Assembly (NCBI GenBank): GCA_017516785.1
Contig: JAFXAV010000036.1
Coordinates: forward strand, 1 to 64,000
Length of the DNA: 64,000 nt
Origin: Oscillospiraceae bacterium
GTDB lineage: Bacteria > Bacillota_A > Clostridia > Oscillospirales > Oscillospiraceae
Direction of reading: 5' to 3'
The position numbers and the translations under genes were made by a program. Each line of letters begins with the position of its first letter. The first letter of the stretch is position 1. The notes below the pieces were generated by a model that did no database searches, had not been told where the DNA came from, and saw only the letters and a list, made by a program, of their open reading frames with translations. Below are positions 8,646 through 15,158 of this stretch, one piece after another.

Positions 8646-9347
8646 TTAACCGCCCAGATAAGCCTTCTTAACTTCGTCAGAGGCAGCCAGTTCCTTGCCA
8701 GTACCGGTCAGGGTCACGCTGCCGGTTTCCAGAACGTATGCACGGTCTGCAATCTGCAGGGCCTTGGATGCGTTCTGCTCGACCAACAGGATAGTAGTGC
8801 CGTCAGCATGGAGCTGCTTGATAATGTCGAAAATCTGGTCAACCAGAATGGGAGCCAGGCCCATGGAGGGTTCATCCAGCATCATGAGTTTCGGATGACT
8901 CATCAGTGCACGGCTCATGGCCAGCATCTGCTGCTCACCGCCGGAGAGGGTGCCGGCAATCTGCTTGCGACGCTCCTTCAGACGGGGGAAATAGTTGAAA
9001 ACCCGCTCCAGGTCATCCTTGGAGACATCCTTGCGGATATAGGCGCCCATTTCCAGGTTTTCCTGGACAGACATCTGCAGGAAAATCCGGCGTCCCTCGG
9101 GAACGTGAGCCAGGCCGTAGCGCAGCAGCTTGTAGGCATCGGTATGGGAGATATCCTCACCCATGAACTCGATCTTACCGCTTCTGGGATGCATCAGGCC
9201 GGAGACAGTCTTCAAAATGGTGCTCTTACCGGCGCCATTGGCACCGATCAGGGCGACGATCTCACCCTCGCCAACTTCAAAGGAAACGCCTTTGATGGCA
9301 TGGATAGCGCCATAATAAACATGAATATCATCGATTTTCAGCATCAT
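8646..9347 (-). CDS. livF: Branched-chain amino acid ABC transporter, ATPase LivF
   Basis: 233-residue ATPase, the normal LivF length. Walker A GANGAGKST, the Q-loop, signature LSGGEQQM, Walker B MMLDEPSMGLAP and switch His (LLVEQNASKAL, where Asn-Ala replaces a plain His as is typical for LivF) are all present. It pairs with LivG on the cytoplasmic face of the LivHM channel and powers uptake. It is the last gene of livJHMGF, five bases after livG. The start has two adjacent ATG codons; the upstream one was taken. Confidence 0.93.
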   Translation of the reverse strand: MMLKIDDIHVYYGAIHAIKGVSFEVGEGEIVALIGANGAGKSTILKTVSGLMHPRSGKIEFMGEDISHTDAYKLLRYGLAHVPEGRRIFLQMSVQENLEMGAYIRKDVSKDDLERVFNYFPRLKERRKQIAGTLSGGEQQMLAMSRALMSHPKLMMLDEPSMGLAPILVDQIFDIIKQLHADGTTILLVEQNASKALQIADRAYVLETGSVTLTGTGKELAASDEVKKAYLGG

Positions 9348-9352
9348 TGCGC

Positions 9353-10178
<826 letters not shown>

Positions 10179-10186
<8 letters not shown>

Positions 10187-11255
10187 TGGTTCCTGCCTCC
10201 TTTCTCTTGCCGGTCATCTTTTCTTTAATTCTTCCCATCAGCATCTGAATGTAGCCCTTGATCTTGGGAGACCAGGTGCAGAGCATAACAACGATCAGAA
10301 CGATGGCATACAGGATCATACGGTAGTCTTCCAGGCCACGCATTGCTTCCGGCAGAATGTACAGTACCGTAGCGGAAATAACGCTGCCCAGAATATTGCC
10401 CATGCCGCCCAGAACCACGAAGACCAGAATGTTGATGGAGGTGTTAAAGTTGAACTTGGTTGCGGTGATGGAAGAATAGTTCAGGCCGAACAGGGCGCCT
10501 GCCATACCGGCCAGCACTGCGGAGACCACGAAAGCCTTCATGCGGAATGCGGTGACATTGATACCCACAGACTCAGCAGCAATGCGGTTATTCTTGATGG
10601 CCTTGATGGCGCGGCCTTCCTTGGAATTAATCAGATTCAAAACCACAAACAGAGTGAAGATGATAAGTGCAAAACCCATGGGGAAGCTTGCCAGCTTTTC
10701 GACGCCGGTAGCACCCTTGGGGCCTGCAATGATGTACTTGCCGCCTTCCAGCAGATCCATCTTGCTGGTGGAGATGGCGAAGTGGAAACCCTTGGAATCG
10801 GTGCCCACGTACATATTGCCAATGATGTTCTTCAGGATTTCACCGAAGGCCAGGGTAACGATAGCCAGGTAGTCGCCCCGCAGACGCAGAACAGGGATAC
10901 CGATCAGGAAACCCATGCCACCGGCGAGAATACCGCCAAAGATCATGGCAATCAGCAGACGGATCACTTCATTGGGAATCAGATTCTTCAGAAGGGCGGC
11001 GATCACAATACCGGAGAAAGCGCCGATGCCCATGAAACCCGCATGGCCCAGGCTCAGCTCACCGCAGACACCGACCAGCAGGTTCAGGGAAACTGCCAGA
11101 ACAATGTATGCACAGACAGGCACCAGATAGCCGTTGACAGAACTCTTCAGCATACCCTGAGAAGACATGACCTGCAGGATGATAAAGGCCACAGTGACCA
11201 TCAGATAGGTGGATGCGTTCTTGATGTTGTTTTTGTTTCGAAGCATGTTTTTCAT
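10179..11255 (-). CDS. livM: Branched-chain amino acid ABC transporter, permease LivM
   Basis: Membrane permease of 358 residues with about eight to ten hydrophobic segments and the LivM hallmarks GELSLGHAGFMGIGAFSG and LRLRGDYLAIVTLAFGEI. It forms the channel with LivH. The start at 11255 (MKNMLRNKN) was chosen because GAGGTG lies seven bases upstream; a GTG nine bases earlier is part of that site. Compared with E. coli LivM it lacks the N-terminal extension, as is usual in Firmicutes. Confidence 0.92.
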
Positions 11256-11265
11256 ATCCGTCACC

Positions 11266-12147
11266 TCACACCTTCTCCTGGACCTGCTTGCCCAAAAGAC
11301 CGGCCGGCTTAACCAACAGGATAATGATCAGAACACTGAACACCACGGCATCAGAGAACTGGGTAGAAATGTACTTCTTTGCAAAGGTCTCGATGATGCC
11401 GATCAGAATGCCGCCGATCATGGCGCCGGGGATGGAACCGATGCCGCCAAAGACAGCAGCAGTGAAAGCACGAATGCCAGGCATGGAACCGGTGGTGGGC
11501 TGCAGAGTGGGCACAGTGGAGCACAGCAGAACACCTGCCACTGCTGCCAGGGCAGAACCAATCGCAAACGTGGTGGAAATGGTCTGGTTAACGTTGATGC
11601 CCATCAGCTGAGCAGCATCACGGTCTTCAGATACAGCGCGCATGGCCTTGCCGGTACGGGTGGAGCCGGTGAACCAGGTCAGAACCACCATGACCAGAAT
11701 GGAAACCAGAACAGTGACCAGAACCTCGCCGGTGATGACCAGCTGGCCATTAAACAGGTGGATGGGTTCAAAGGTGACGATACTGGTAAAGTTCTTGGGA
11801 GCGGAGGACCAGATCAGTTGTGCTGCATTCTGCAAGAAATAGCTGACACCGATGGCGGTAATCAGAACGGCAAGGCTGGGAGTACCGCGCAGAGGCTTGT
11901 AAGCAAGACCCTCAATCAGAATACCCAGCAGAGTGCAGACGGCCATTGCAGCAACAATGGACACGATTGCAGGAAGTCCCAGGTAGCTGGTAACGCAGAA
12001 GGAAATATAGGCGCCCACCATGATGACGTCGCCGTGGGCAAAGTTCAGCATCTTTGCGATGCCATAGACCATGGTATAACCCAGCGCAATGATGGCATAC
12101 ACGGAGCCAATGCTGAGACCATTGATCAGATACTGTAACAGTTGCAT
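11266..12147 (-). CDS. livH: Branched-chain amino acid ABC transporter, permease LivH
   Basis: 293-residue permease with about eight hydrophobic segments. Family motifs: IGSVYAIIALGYTMVYGIAKMLNFAHGD near the N-terminus, AVSEDRDAAQLMGINV (the loop that contacts the ATPases) and FGGIGSIPGAMIGG. The ATG at 12147 follows AGAGAGGTAAGAT. The gene starts 114 bases after livJ, with a long hairpin in between, and ends ten bases before livM. Confidence 0.93.
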   Translation of the reverse strand: MQLLQYLINGLSIGSVYAIIALGYTMVYGIAKMLNFAHGDVIMVGAYISFCVTSYLGLPAIVSIVAAMAVCTLLGILIEGLAYKPLRGTPSLAVLITAIGVSYFLQNAAQLIWSSAPKNFTSIVTFEPIHLFNGQLVITGEVLVTVLVSILVMVVLTWFTGSTRTGKAMRAVSEDRDAAQLMGINVNQTISTTFAIGSALAAVAGVLLCSTVPTLQPTTGSMPGIRAFTAAVFGGIGSIPGAMIGGILIGIIETFAKKYISTQFSDAVVFSVLIIILLVKPAGLLGKQVQEKV

Positions 12148-12221
12148 ATCTTACCTCTCTTTCTCGACAGCCTATGACGGCGGCCGGATACAGCCGCTCT
12201 CATGGACTGTCGAACAGCGGT

Positions 12222-12253
12222 TTTGGGATGGGCAGATTTCTGCCCATCCCAAA
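12222..12253 (-). terminator. livJ-livH intercistronic hairpin
   Basis: Perfect 15-bp stem (12222-12236 with 12239-12253) eight bases past the livJ stop. No T-run follows on the minus strand, so it is more likely an RNA-stabilising or partial-termination element that keeps the binding-protein mRNA in excess. Confidence 0.6.
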
Positions 12254-12261
12254 GTGAAATT

Positions 12262-13425
12262 TTAAGCCATGGGAACGTAGACACCGTCAGTGATGACCAC
12301 TGCTGCAGGAGCCTTGGAGATCATGCCTTCCTCGTCCCAGGTCATGCCCTTGCCGGTCAGGCCGTCGAAGGTCAGGGAGCCAAATGCTTCGATCAGAGCG
12401 GCGCAGACATCAGCGGGAGCGGTGGTACCGTCGATACCAGCCTCGACGCATGCATTGTAGACAGCATAGACGCAGTCATAAGCATCGGCAGCAAACTGGT
12501 TGGGGATGCCACCGGTCTTTTCCTGATACTTGGCAACGAAGGACTTGGTAGCCTCATCGGAAGCGTTTGCATCGAAGGGAGTCATCAGTGCCAGACCTTC
12601 AGCCAGAGCAGTGTCGAAGCCTTCCACGGTCAGGATGCCGTCCATGCCGTCGCAGCCAAAGAAGCTGGGAGCGAAGCCGATCTTATTGGCGTAGGTCAGG
12701 ATCTGGGATGCCTCGGTGTAATAGATGGGCAGGAACACCATGGTAGTACCAGCGTCCTTGCACTGGGTAACCTGGGTGGACAGGTCGGACTTGGTATCGG
12801 CAGTGAAAGAAGTCTCAACAGCAATATTCAGGCCCAGCTCTTCAGCCTTACCCATGAAGCCTTCGTACAGGCCGGAGGAGTAGTCGTCGGAAGAGTCGTA
12901 GATGACACCGATAACTGCATCGGCCCAGTTGGAGGCGATGACCTCAGCAGCGGATGCACCCTGGTTGGGGTCGGTGAAGCACATCTGGAAGGTGGTGGGG
13001 CCGGCGGTTGCGACTTCCACAGCGGATGCGGAGGGAGTCAGCAGGAAGATTTCGTCATTGACGGTTTCGGGAGCAACAGCGTTGCAAGCGCCGGAGGTAA
13101 CGGTGCCGATGAAAACCTGCATGCCCCAGTCCTTCAGGATGTTGTAGCCGGAGATGGCCTTTTCGCCGTCGGCTTCGTCATCTTCGGACTTGAACTCAAT
13201 CTGCAGGCCGCCCAGAGCGTTGATCTCTTCGACAGCGATCTCGATACCTGCTTCAACAGCGGTGCCGTAAACAGCTGCGCCACCAGTCAGAGGGCCGGTC
13301 ATGCCGATCTTCAGGGCAGCTGCGCTGCCGTCAGCAGCGGGTTCGTTGCTGTTGCTGCCGCCGCAGCCAGCAAACATGGTGACTACCATCATAGCAGCCA
13401 GAATCAGTGCGATTGTCTTTTTCAT
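12262..13425 (-). CDS. livJ: Branched-chain amino acid ABC transporter, substrate-binding lipoprotein
   Basis: 387 residues. The N-terminus is a lipoprotein signal (MKKTIALILAAMMVVTMFAGCGG, Cys 21 lipidated), followed by a Ser/Asn/Glu-rich linker. The two-lobed periplasmic-binding fold of the Leu/Ile/Val family is recognisable from KIGMTGPLTGGAAVYGTAVEAGIEIAVEEINA and the FFGCDGMDG region. It captures amino acids outside the membrane for LivHM. AAAAGGAG precedes the ATG. Its leader carries a peptide rich in Ile/Leu/Val codons and an attenuator, which supports branched-chain amino acids as substrate rather than urea or amides. Confidence 0.92.
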   Translation of the reverse strand: MKKTIALILAAMMVVTMFAGCGGSNSNEPAADGSAAALKIGMTGPLTGGAAVYGTAVEAGIEIAVEEINALGGLQIEFKSEDDEADGEKAISGYNILKDWGMQVFIGTVTSGACNAVAPETVNDEIFLLTPSASAVEVATAGPTTFQMCFTDPNQGASAAEVIASNWADAVIGVIYDSSDDYSSGLYEGFMGKAEELGLNIAVETSFTADTKSDLSTQVTQCKDAGTTMVFLPIYYTEASQILTYANKIGFAPSFFGCDGMDGILTVEGFDTALAEGLALMTPFDANASDEATKSFVAKYQEKTGGIPNQFAADAYDCVYAVYNACVEAGIDGTTAPADVCAALIEAFGSLTFDGLTGKGMTWDEEGMISKAPAAVVITDGVYVPMA

Positions 13426-13460
13426 GTAAAAGTCTCCTTTTCCATTTCTTACAGATTATG

Positions 13461-13489
13461 AAAAAAGCGGCTACGTTTCCGTAACCGCC
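13461..13489 (-). terminator. liv attenuator terminator
   Basis: On the minus strand GGCGGTTACG-GAAA-CGTAGCCGC with one G-U pair, then TTTTTT, located between the leader peptide stop and livJ. The left arm (13480-13489) can instead pair with GTAACCG just after the leader stop (within 13509-13518), forming an antiterminator. Confidence 0.8.
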
Positions 13490-13521
13490 TGATCATACTA
13501 TGTATGTCCCGGTTACACTTT

Positions 13522-13662
13522 TCAGTCTGCCAGTAGGATGCGGACAAAAAGAGACACTACCTCATTGGCAGTGTCCAACCGGTTGATAATTCGCGCAGAG
13601 GAAGAAGCCGCTGCGGAGCAGTGGCAGAAAAACTGAGAAGAACTGTTATTTCTGGCAGTCAT
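13522..13662 (-). CDS. liv leader peptide (46 aa), branched-chain attenuation
   Basis: 46 codons beginning MTARNNSSS and ending EVVSLFVRILLAD. Ten of the last 22 codons encode Ile, Leu or Val (residues 25, 26, 29, 35, 36, 38, 40, 42, 43, 44), including an uncommon CTA. GGGAGG lies eight bases before the ATG, and the reading frame starts about 30 bases after a strong promoter. Codons 27-31 contain CCGGTTGGACAC, which can pair with GTGTAACCGG just after the stop, the classic segment 1:2 of an attenuator. Charged-tRNA shortage would stall the ribosome here and free the antiterminator. Known in principle from ilv/leu leaders; this instance is read directly from the sequence. Confidence 0.75.
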   Translation of the reverse strand: MTARNNSSSQFFCHCSAAASSSARIINRLDTANEVVSLFVRILLAD

Positions 13663-13692
13663 CTTCAATAACCTCCCTGACGAATTGAGGCT

Positions 13693-13730
13693 ATTGTATC
13701 TCACAGACGGACAAATGTCAATCTGTGAGA
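13693..13730 (-). promoter_or_regulatory. liv promoter with overlapping operator dyad
   Basis: TTGACA (13716-13721), 17-base spacer, TACAAT (13693-13698). A perfect 9-bp inverted repeat TCTCACAGA/TCTGTGAGA with 14-base spacing (13699-13707 and 13722-13730) brackets the -35 box, so a dimeric repressor site is likely in addition to attenuation. Confidence 0.8.
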
Positions 13731-13784
13731 TTACAAAAGATTGCCAAATGTATACAAGTTTTTTTGTGCAGTGTATACAACGAT

Positions 13785-15158
13785 TCACTCAGAATCCATC
13801 AAGTTTTTGCATGCGGCCAGGACTTTGCTAAGGATGGGAACGCAGGTGGAACTGCCATATCCGCCATTTTCCACAACAACCATGAACGCCAGAGGATATT
13901 CTTCGTCAGCTACAAAGCCTGCAAACATGGCATTGGGTTCCTGGTCCCCGCCCAGCTGGCTGGTGCCGGACTTGGCGCAGACCGTCAGACCGGGAAAATT
14001 CTTGGCGCCGTAGTTGTTTTCCACGTTATTGCGCATATATTCCCGCAAAATGACTGCAATTTCCTCAGACATAATGCGCTCAGACATCTGAGGCGCAGCT
14101 TCGTAGTTGATTTCGCCGTCACAGGTAACTGTGGATACCAAATGAGGCATTGCTGCCTGTCCGCCTCCAGCAATCATACCCATGAAGGTCATATAGCGGC
14201 AGGGATTGACCAGGTCGGTGTGCTGACCGATGGCACTCCAGGCAACCTGTACCTTGGATGCGCCTTCCAGATCGTAATTACCTCTTGCGGTGGTAATTCC
14301 GTCAAAACTGACAGGCTCCGTCACCTGAAACTGCTTCACGTATTCTTTCAGGGTGGATACACCCAGCTGATCGGCAATCTGAGCAAAAGCACAGTTGCAG
14401 GATCTCTGAAGGGCAGTTTTCAGGCTCAGATTACCATGGGCCTTTTCGCAGGTAACGTCATATGCGCCATACTCATAGTGACCGGTGCATTTGAAGCTCT
14501 GCTCCAGGATGTCCGGAATCGCATCCAGCGCTGCTGCGGTGGTTACCACCTTGAAAATAGAACCAGGCACATAGGCAGACTGGGTAAAGCGGTTTAAGTA
14601 CACACCCTCCCACTTACCGGAGGATTCATTTTCAATATCCGGAACATTGTCCGGGTCATAGTTGGGGGTTGTGACCGCGCAGAGAATCTCACCGGTTTTG
14701 TAATTGTACACAGCAACGGTTCCCTTCCGGTCACCCATCGCTTTCAGCGCGGCTTTCTGAACCTCAGAAGAGACTGTGAGAATTGCCTGCCCGCCGGCAC
14801 CGCCGTAGGAATAAAGACCGTCCACCAAATCGTAGCCGGTCATCTCCTTGGCATAATGGGATACCGCCGGAGCGCTGATGCGGCCTTCCCGGTCGCCCAA
14901 CCAATGGAGTGTGGCTTTCCGGATATCCGCATTCTCTGCATAGACGCGGTTCTCCGTAAGATCCAGAAGCATGCTGCCGTCCCGGTCCACCACCTGACCG
15001 CAGCCGATGTTGGAGCTGTTGTACACATGGGGAGAACCGGCAGAAATCACCCAGTCGTCAGCATAGACCACATATTCATAAAGGAAGAAACCCATGCCGC
15101 CCAGCAGCAGAACAACCAGTAGGAACAGGGCCCCGGCACGATTGGATATTCTATTCAT
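13785..15158 (-). CDS. Class B penicillin-binding protein (transpeptidase)
   Basis: 457 residues. An N-terminal membrane anchor (about 10-30) is followed by the pedestal and a C-terminal transpeptidase domain with SxxK (PGSIFK), SxN (SCN in QRSCNCAFAQ) and KSGT. It cross-links peptidoglycan outside the membrane. It is short for FtsI or PbpA types and has no PASTA domains. It overlaps the FHA-FtsW gene by eight bases; SEDS polymerase plus class B PBP is the standard functional pair. Whether it serves division, elongation or the spore cortex cannot be settled from sequence. Confidence 0.88.
   Translation of the reverse strand: MNRISNRAGALFLLVVLLLGGMGFFLYEYVVYADDWVISAGSPHVYNSSNIGCGQVVDRDGSMLLDLTENRVYAENADIRKATLHWLGDREGRISAPAVSHYAKEMTGYDLVDGLYSYGGAGGQAILTVSSEVQKAALKAMGDRKGTVAVYNYKTGEILCAVTTPNYDPDNVPDIENESSGKWEGVYLNRFTQSAYVPGSIFKVVTTAAALDAIPDILEQSFKCTGHYEYGAYDVTCEKAHGNLSLKTALQRSCNCAFAQIADQLGVSTLKEYVKQFQVTEPVSFDGITTARGNYDLEGASKVQVAWSAIGQHTDLVNPCRYMTFMGMIAGGGQAAMPHLVSTVTCDGEINYEAAPQMSERIMSEEIAVILREYMRNNVENNYGAKNFPGLTVCAKSGTSQLGGDQEPNAMFAGFVADEEYPLAFMVVVENGGYGSSTCVPILSKVLAACKNLMDSE

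Follow-up and report, generated by a model that had tools for sequence, protein, structure and literature searches.

A probable leader-peptide attenuator rich in branched-chain codons ahead of a livKHMGF importer operon in an Oscillospiraceae bacterium

What controls the importer operon encoded on the reverse strand of a 64,000-nucleotide stretch of Oscillospiraceae DNA (the window)? The livKHMGF operon (8646..13425) looks complete from its gene content, and by homology we infer that its substrate is branched-chain amino acids. The best NCBIfam match of LivK was a branched-chain binding protein (E 1.9e-29), all matches being under the curated cut-offs, and the proteins of solved structure most similar to it are binding proteins for branched-chain amino acids. 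The initial annotation had claimed, for the DNA ahead of livK, a 46-codon leader ORF with a ribosome site, ten Ile/Leu/Val codons among its last 22, and a segment past the stop codon that can alternatively pair with the left arm of a terminator ending in TTTTTT. All these elements were found again (Table 1). The last base of the GGGAGG of the Shine-Dalgarno sequence lies 9 bases 5' of the leader ATG, and the antiterminator also has an inner stem, CATAC/GTATG, which the initial annotation had left out. The leader (13687-13455) folds better than 200/200 dinucleotide shuffles (z = -5.28). Hairpin P2, a second strong hairpin, within the ORF and likewise absent from the initial annotation, is possibly a polymerase pause hairpin.

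Table 1. Features of the liv leader and operon in the window
Feature	Position	Strand	Basis or remark
Promoter-like site, TTGACA-17-TACAAT, 11/12 matches	13721-13693	-	Promoter scan
Shine-Dalgarno AGGGAGG of the leader ORF	13672..13678	-	Sequence reading; relatives too
Leader ORF, 46 codons, MTARNNSSSQFFCHCSAAASSSARIINRLDTANEVVSLFVRILLAD	13522..13662	-	10/22 last codons Ile/Leu/Val
Segment 1, CCGGTTGGACAC, in codons 27-31, can pair with segment 2	13571..13582	-	Sequence reading, fold
Hairpin P2 within the ORF	13552..13576	-	Hairpin scan and comparison
Segment 2, GTGTAACCGG, 4-13 bases past the stop codon	13509..13518	-	Sequence reading
Antiterminator 2:3, GTAACCG (13516-13510) with CGGTTAC (13487-13481)	13481..13516	-	Fold and comparison
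Intrinsic terminator 3:4, stem 13489-13465, TTTTTT 13466-13461	13461..13489	-	Hairpin scan and comparison
LivK-type branched-chain amino acid binding protein, first gene of the operon	12262..13425	-	Homology
livH	12147-11266	-	NCBIfam, below curated cut-off
livM	11264-10179	-	NCBIfam, below curated cut-off
livG	10186-9353	-	NCBIfam, below curated cut-off
livF-like ATPase	9347-8646	-	Name from position and sequence only

The promoter scan of 12500-15000 gave one such site against 1.8 in shuffles, so that the match alone proves nothing; TTGACAAATGT...GAGATACAAT of the site recurs among relatives. The block TTGACAAATGTCC...GAGATACAAT (13693-13721) is almost invariant among relatives, including several without the leader, and contains an inverted repeat, GACA-N2-TGTC, which could be a candidate operator. 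Directly upstream of the leader lies a penicillin-binding-protein-like gene (13785-15158, minus strand; matches below cut-offs), and in many relatives a similar protein, as judged by eye, ends ahead of the promoter.

The principle of attenuation has been known since the trp operon. We consider it very probable, from sequence comparison, that the leader is a ribosome-mediated transcription attenuator of the livKHMGF importer and responds to charged tRNA-Leu, tRNA-Ile and tRNA-Val. It has a predicted translated ORF with initiation signals (Shine-Dalgarno, ATG and frame-specific codons), regulatory codons that fit the predicted substrate of the operon, and an intrinsic terminator before the first gene; since CGGTTAC is part of the left arm of this terminator, antiterminator and terminator are mutually exclusive. 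The leader RNA would be transcribed and translated concurrently. When branched-chain amino acids are ample, the ribosome would arrive at the stop codon, beside or within segment 2, and mask that segment, leading to terminator 3:4. When any of Leu, Ile or Val is short, it would halt in the branched-chain run and leave segment 2 free; the free segment would pair with segment 3 ahead of the synthesis of segment 4, allowing readthrough into livK. With no ribosome, segment 1 of the window could sequester segment 2, again leading to termination. The stalling, its timing and the response to starvation are predictions from the anatomy and its conservation, both of which were observed directly.

Conservation was examined in 80 loci with related SBPs (L001-L080) obtained by a genome scan. 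Promoter, Shine-Dalgarno sequence, ORF (39-55 codons) and terminator were present in 17/17 relatives with a 61-77% identical SBP (L001-L018 minus L010, which starts too near a contig end), and antiterminator and terminator could be drawn in all 18 leaders, the window included. A peptide profile built from these 18 leaders gave one strong match per genome (E 5.1e-9 or better), adjoining liv, in 12/12 genomes; it found no second member of a regulon in the 12 genomes, the other matches being weak (best E 0.006). Within the genus to which G004 belongs (L005 comes from this genome, which is labelled Candidatus Faecousia), the profile matched in 43 of 136 genomes, namely the 17 close relatives and 26 further ones.

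A LivK relative at E<=1e-60 was present in 80 of the 136 genus genomes, and in 55 of these 80 at E<=1e-90, a cut chosen after the list was seen; two of the 55 (G290, G307) lacked usable upstream DNA, leaving 53 readable. ORF, antiterminator and terminator occurred together in 46 of the 53, of which 41 were recognised by profile and five by reading (L172, L179, L193, L187, L195). The claim of leader-peptide attenuation of liv is thus upheld by relatives that retain ORF, branched-chain codons, antiterminator and terminator together, and the attenuator is probably real because its layout recurs in dozens of related species. The leader was absent from the other seven. Nothing of it remains in L166 and L190, L191 has a weak stem only, L189 has a stem with an interrupted T-run, and the sisters L188 and L192 have a different stem and T-run without the leader. 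In L167 the orthologous terminator is intact (-11.7 kcal/mol), without leader ORF or antiterminator. Such a case, a terminator kept where the ORF is lost, had been named in advance as evidence against attenuation; it occurs in this one genome of 53, the whole layout being kept in 46, and looks like decay of an attenuator.

Among the 25 genus genomes with a weaker LivK, a profile match adjoins LivK in two (G285, G332), and no leader was found in the eight loci of this group that were read (L199-L206; L199 short). L166, L190, L200, L201, L202, L204 and L205 have a like promoter and a short 5' UTR with no attenuator, having either lost the switch or branched off before it was gained. In a 200-genome sample of the family of G001, the profile was found in G001 itself alone (1/200); G092, G138 and G186, whose numbers fall within the range of this sample, have leaders of other sequence that are invisible to the profile.

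For codon content we used 49 leaders: the window, the 17 relatives, the 26 further profile matches and the five read by eye. The 26 were found via similarity to the first 18 and are therefore not independent. Removal of seven near-duplicates left 42 leaders, and 39-leader sets also omit L172, L179 and L193. In the 49-leader set the T-run was placed a few bases late in L150 and L179; the placement was narrower in the 42-leader analysis. Ile/Leu/Val made up 47.5% (0.475) of the last 22 codons in frame (mean over 49 leaders; Leu 19.5%, Val 16.4%, Ile 11.6%), as compared to 15.6% and 17.7% in the other frames and 9.0% in the N-terminal part, and the in-frame share was above all three comparisons in 49/49 leaders. 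In the N-terminal part (13591-13662 in the window) Ala, Ser and Cys abound and Ile/Leu/Val codons are scarce (9%), as though to keep ribosomes from stalling too soon. Sensing of cysteine, considered for the Cys-rich N-terminal half, was rejected: the last 22 codons are free of Cys in the window, L007, L008, L012, L013 and L017. Ile/Leu/Val codons are always present there, also in the Cys-free leaders.

The presence of strong, conserved hairpins would also suit a switch made of RNA only (riboswitch, T-box or protein-bound leader), perhaps of an undescribed RNA family, with the ORF as a by-product, and we hold this to be very improbable, since the codon pattern is specific to the reading frame and no liv leader reached an Rfam gathering score, neither that of the window, which gave two sub-threshold matches only, nor those in the 60 of 80 loci scanned.

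The position of the branched-chain codons follows that of segment 2. The antiterminator could be drawn in 49/49 leaders, and its segment 2 then begins within the range stop-10 to stop+13. Where segment 2 starts at or before the stop codon (24/42), the last four codons held 0.79 branched-chain codons, and where it starts at least 3 bases after the stop (18/42) they held 2.06 (Mann-Whitney p=0.0005; Spearman 0.57, p=8e-5; 42 leaders, kinship ignored, as in all statistics here). Branched-chain codons would thin near a segment 2 that overlaps the stop codon because a ribosome halted there would cover segment 2; pairing constraints could explain the thinning in the last codon or two. Thirteen overlapping close pairs showed 71 nonsynonymous changes (1360 sites) and 23 synonymous ones (483 sites), a dN/dS of about 1.1. 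A ratio of about 1 is expected if the codons and pairing of the leader matter more than the peptide product. The Ile/Leu/Val class was kept in 30 of 65 changes against 21.7 expected, weakly above chance (17 overlapping close pairs).

These figures also bear on whether the leader could encode a functional small membrane protein, with its hydrophobic end transmembrane and the terminator incidental. Such a protein would account for the hydrophobic C-terminal part and for the well conserved position of the ORF. It would, however, hardly be expected to evolve at a dN/dS of about 1.1 in close pairs, to hold only 4.5% Phe, Met and Trp against 47.5% Ile/Leu/Val in its last 22 codons, to place arginine at 5.6% of the same codons, or to let the end of its Ile/Leu/Val run track segment 2. 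We therefore give this explanation very little weight.

Much the same low standing falls to a sequence-specific arrest peptide, on which the ribosome would stall in response to a small molecule instead of an uncharged tRNA. A motif like CxAAACxSARI..LDTA..VVSI is indeed found in many leaders. However, its LDTA/VVS part doubles as the two arms of hairpin P2, and Ile/Leu/Val codons and switch are kept in leaders that lack either half: L007 and L008 are without most of the N-terminal motif, and L172, L179 and L193 without the LDTA/VVS part. The latter three, which were missed by the profile, have different peptides that are still 50-55% Ile/Leu/Val at the end; they keep this end without hairpin P2, which is present in the other 39 of the 42 non-redundant leaders.

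We determined how far the pairings of the proposed attenuator are conserved, using an alignment of the 42 leaders (A2) for terminator and antiterminator. The terminator forms in 96% of cells, with double changes in 5/10 pairs; none of 500 shuffles reached its double-change count, and it exceeded all 500 on four of five measures (kinship ignored). The antiterminator forms in 83% of cells as against 25-41% when slid. Its five measures were reached by 17, 370, 8, 444 and 8 of 500 shuffles; the covariation score was reached by 8/500 and the counts of pairs and of types by 370 and 444. Pairing of segments 1 and 2 gave p=0.009 over 18 leaders (with L017 mis-anchored), 0.09 over 39, and 0.0001 over 39 with a gapless score, the score being lowest in L013. 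Terminator pairs thus covary, whereas covariation in the antiterminator is moderate and exceeds shuffles on some measures only. The pairing of codons 27-31 with the segment after the stop, also proposed earlier, is possible in the window and has mixed comparative support; it is partly supported and is the least secure element of the scheme.

The terminator nearly always wins at equilibrium, and therefore the decision must be kinetic. In a folding model, ribosome positions were swept over 18 leaders and the probability of the antiterminator was obtained before segment 4 exists. A ribosome placed at the stop codon gave a modelled antiterminator below 0.3 in 15/18 leaders, the exceptions being L003, L013 and L017 (about 0.5, 0.8 and 0.4). 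For ribosomes further upstream it was mostly high, though weak or intermittent across much of the ORF in L002, L005 and L014. Without a ribosome it was above 0.7 in 13/18 leaders before segment 4 is made; a third, ribosome-free terminating state is therefore not general. In the window the model gave 0.30 without a ribosome, about 0.9 with the ribosome stalled in the branched-chain run and 0.2 at the stop, three states as in the classical attenuation model.

Comparison with known systems revealed likeness in layout and difference in target. In the passages of the review used here (PMC6123439), the E. coli ilvGMEDA, ilvBN and leuABCD attenuators also combine a branched-chain-rich leader with an antiterminator/terminator choice; they control synthesis, whereas the leader of the window precedes an importer. 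The same passages regard ribosome-mediated attenuation of branched-chain synthesis as backed by evidence in S. aureus and L. monocytogenes and as a prediction for other Gram-positives. The S. aureus ilv-leu attenuator peptide (Kaiser 2018, PMC5794164) is likewise from a Firmicute, with branched-chain codons and a terminator/antiterminator choice; unlike that of the window, it is, according to the consulted part of the paper, a 26-residue Leu-rich peptide of a biosynthetic operon on which CodY also acts. The attenuator motifs of a 2021 survey (PMC8632094) likewise place a uORF that carries regulatory codons ahead of an intrinsic terminator; those in the excerpt at hand precede cysS, hflX, aroF and odc1, with no liv among them. 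Titles and abstracts of the open-access literature, a scope outside which subscription journals mostly lie, yielded no leader peptide of a Firmicutes Liv importer. In E. coli, transcription was reportedly found in older work to end prematurely within the livJ leader. The initial annotation had called peptide attenuation of a Liv importer notable, since Firmicutes usually control branched-chain genes with T-boxes or CodY; for branched-chain genes as such, peptide attenuation is already known in Firmicutes, and what is unusual is an importer as its target in genomes that carry T-boxes. Attenuation, best known from biosynthetic operons, would thereby gain an importer in a T-box-carrying lineage. 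The 49 leaders form a natural series whose stop codons, control codons and antiterminators move in concert, so that the geometry of attenuation becomes testable, and the series offers a route to predicting regulation by amino-acid supply in uncultured gut bacteria.

Beyond the genus, a fixed rule (Shine-Dalgarno ORF and terminator with at least 36% Ile/Leu/Val) was applied to liv and control genes. It was met by 21/77 liv genes as compared to 1/90 control genes; 14 of the 21 loci are close relatives, L038 and L039 hardly differ from each other, and the hit in L047 may belong to a coding region. L001, L008 and L009 were just under the threshold, L053 was among three unusable loci, and L059 failed. 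Leaders of different sequence and the same layout precede liv SBPs in L038/L039, L045, L068, L070 and L076, the last labelled Erysipelotrichaceae, and by eye in L053 and L059 as well. L034 and L019 have, by eye, a terminator-like stem and no such ORF.

T-box leaders also sense tRNA charging and act through a terminator/antiterminator choice; the tRNA is bound directly by the RNA, and a leader ORF is unneeded. RF00230 had no match at the liv leader of the window, which is thus not assigned to the T-box class, though the genomes of its relatives carry T-boxes. T-box matches numbered 8-15 per genome in 12/12 relatives, with at least one over the cut-off in each, and 3-15 per genome in 7/7 distant genomes; of 14 control genomes, five had matches and two had them over the cut-off. 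All seven ValS-looking proteins downstream of T-boxes proved on testing to be valine-tRNA ligases. Both ilvC and ilvD were present in 9/12 genomes of the relatives and in 14/14 controls. Eight of the nine ilvC-bearing genomes have, on the contig and strand of ilvC, a T-box match 8.0-8.4 kb upstream of that gene; all eight matches fall short of the gathering score (76-92 bits, the threshold being 93; E 8e-17 or better). Both regions that were read show the match followed by a run of genes ending in ilvC and ilvD, the others being ilvA/leu/ilvBN-like (named by eye). Neither ilvC nor ilvD was found in G009, G010 and G011, reflecting loss or incomplete assembly, yet their liv leader is kept. Uptake and synthesis appear to have separate modes of sensing, since a T-box match heads ilv-leu (in the two regions read) and a leader peptide heads liv. 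We lean slightly towards the broader proposal that Clostridial gut bacteria split their sensing, with T-boxes for ilv-leu synthesis and valS and leader peptides for uptake, and that liv attenuators are widespread and unrecognised beyond one genus. In two loci labelled Lachnospiraceae, T-boxes (L049:803-1009 and L054:1030-1228) head a prolyl-tRNA-synthetase-like gene, identified by eye, that adjoins liv.
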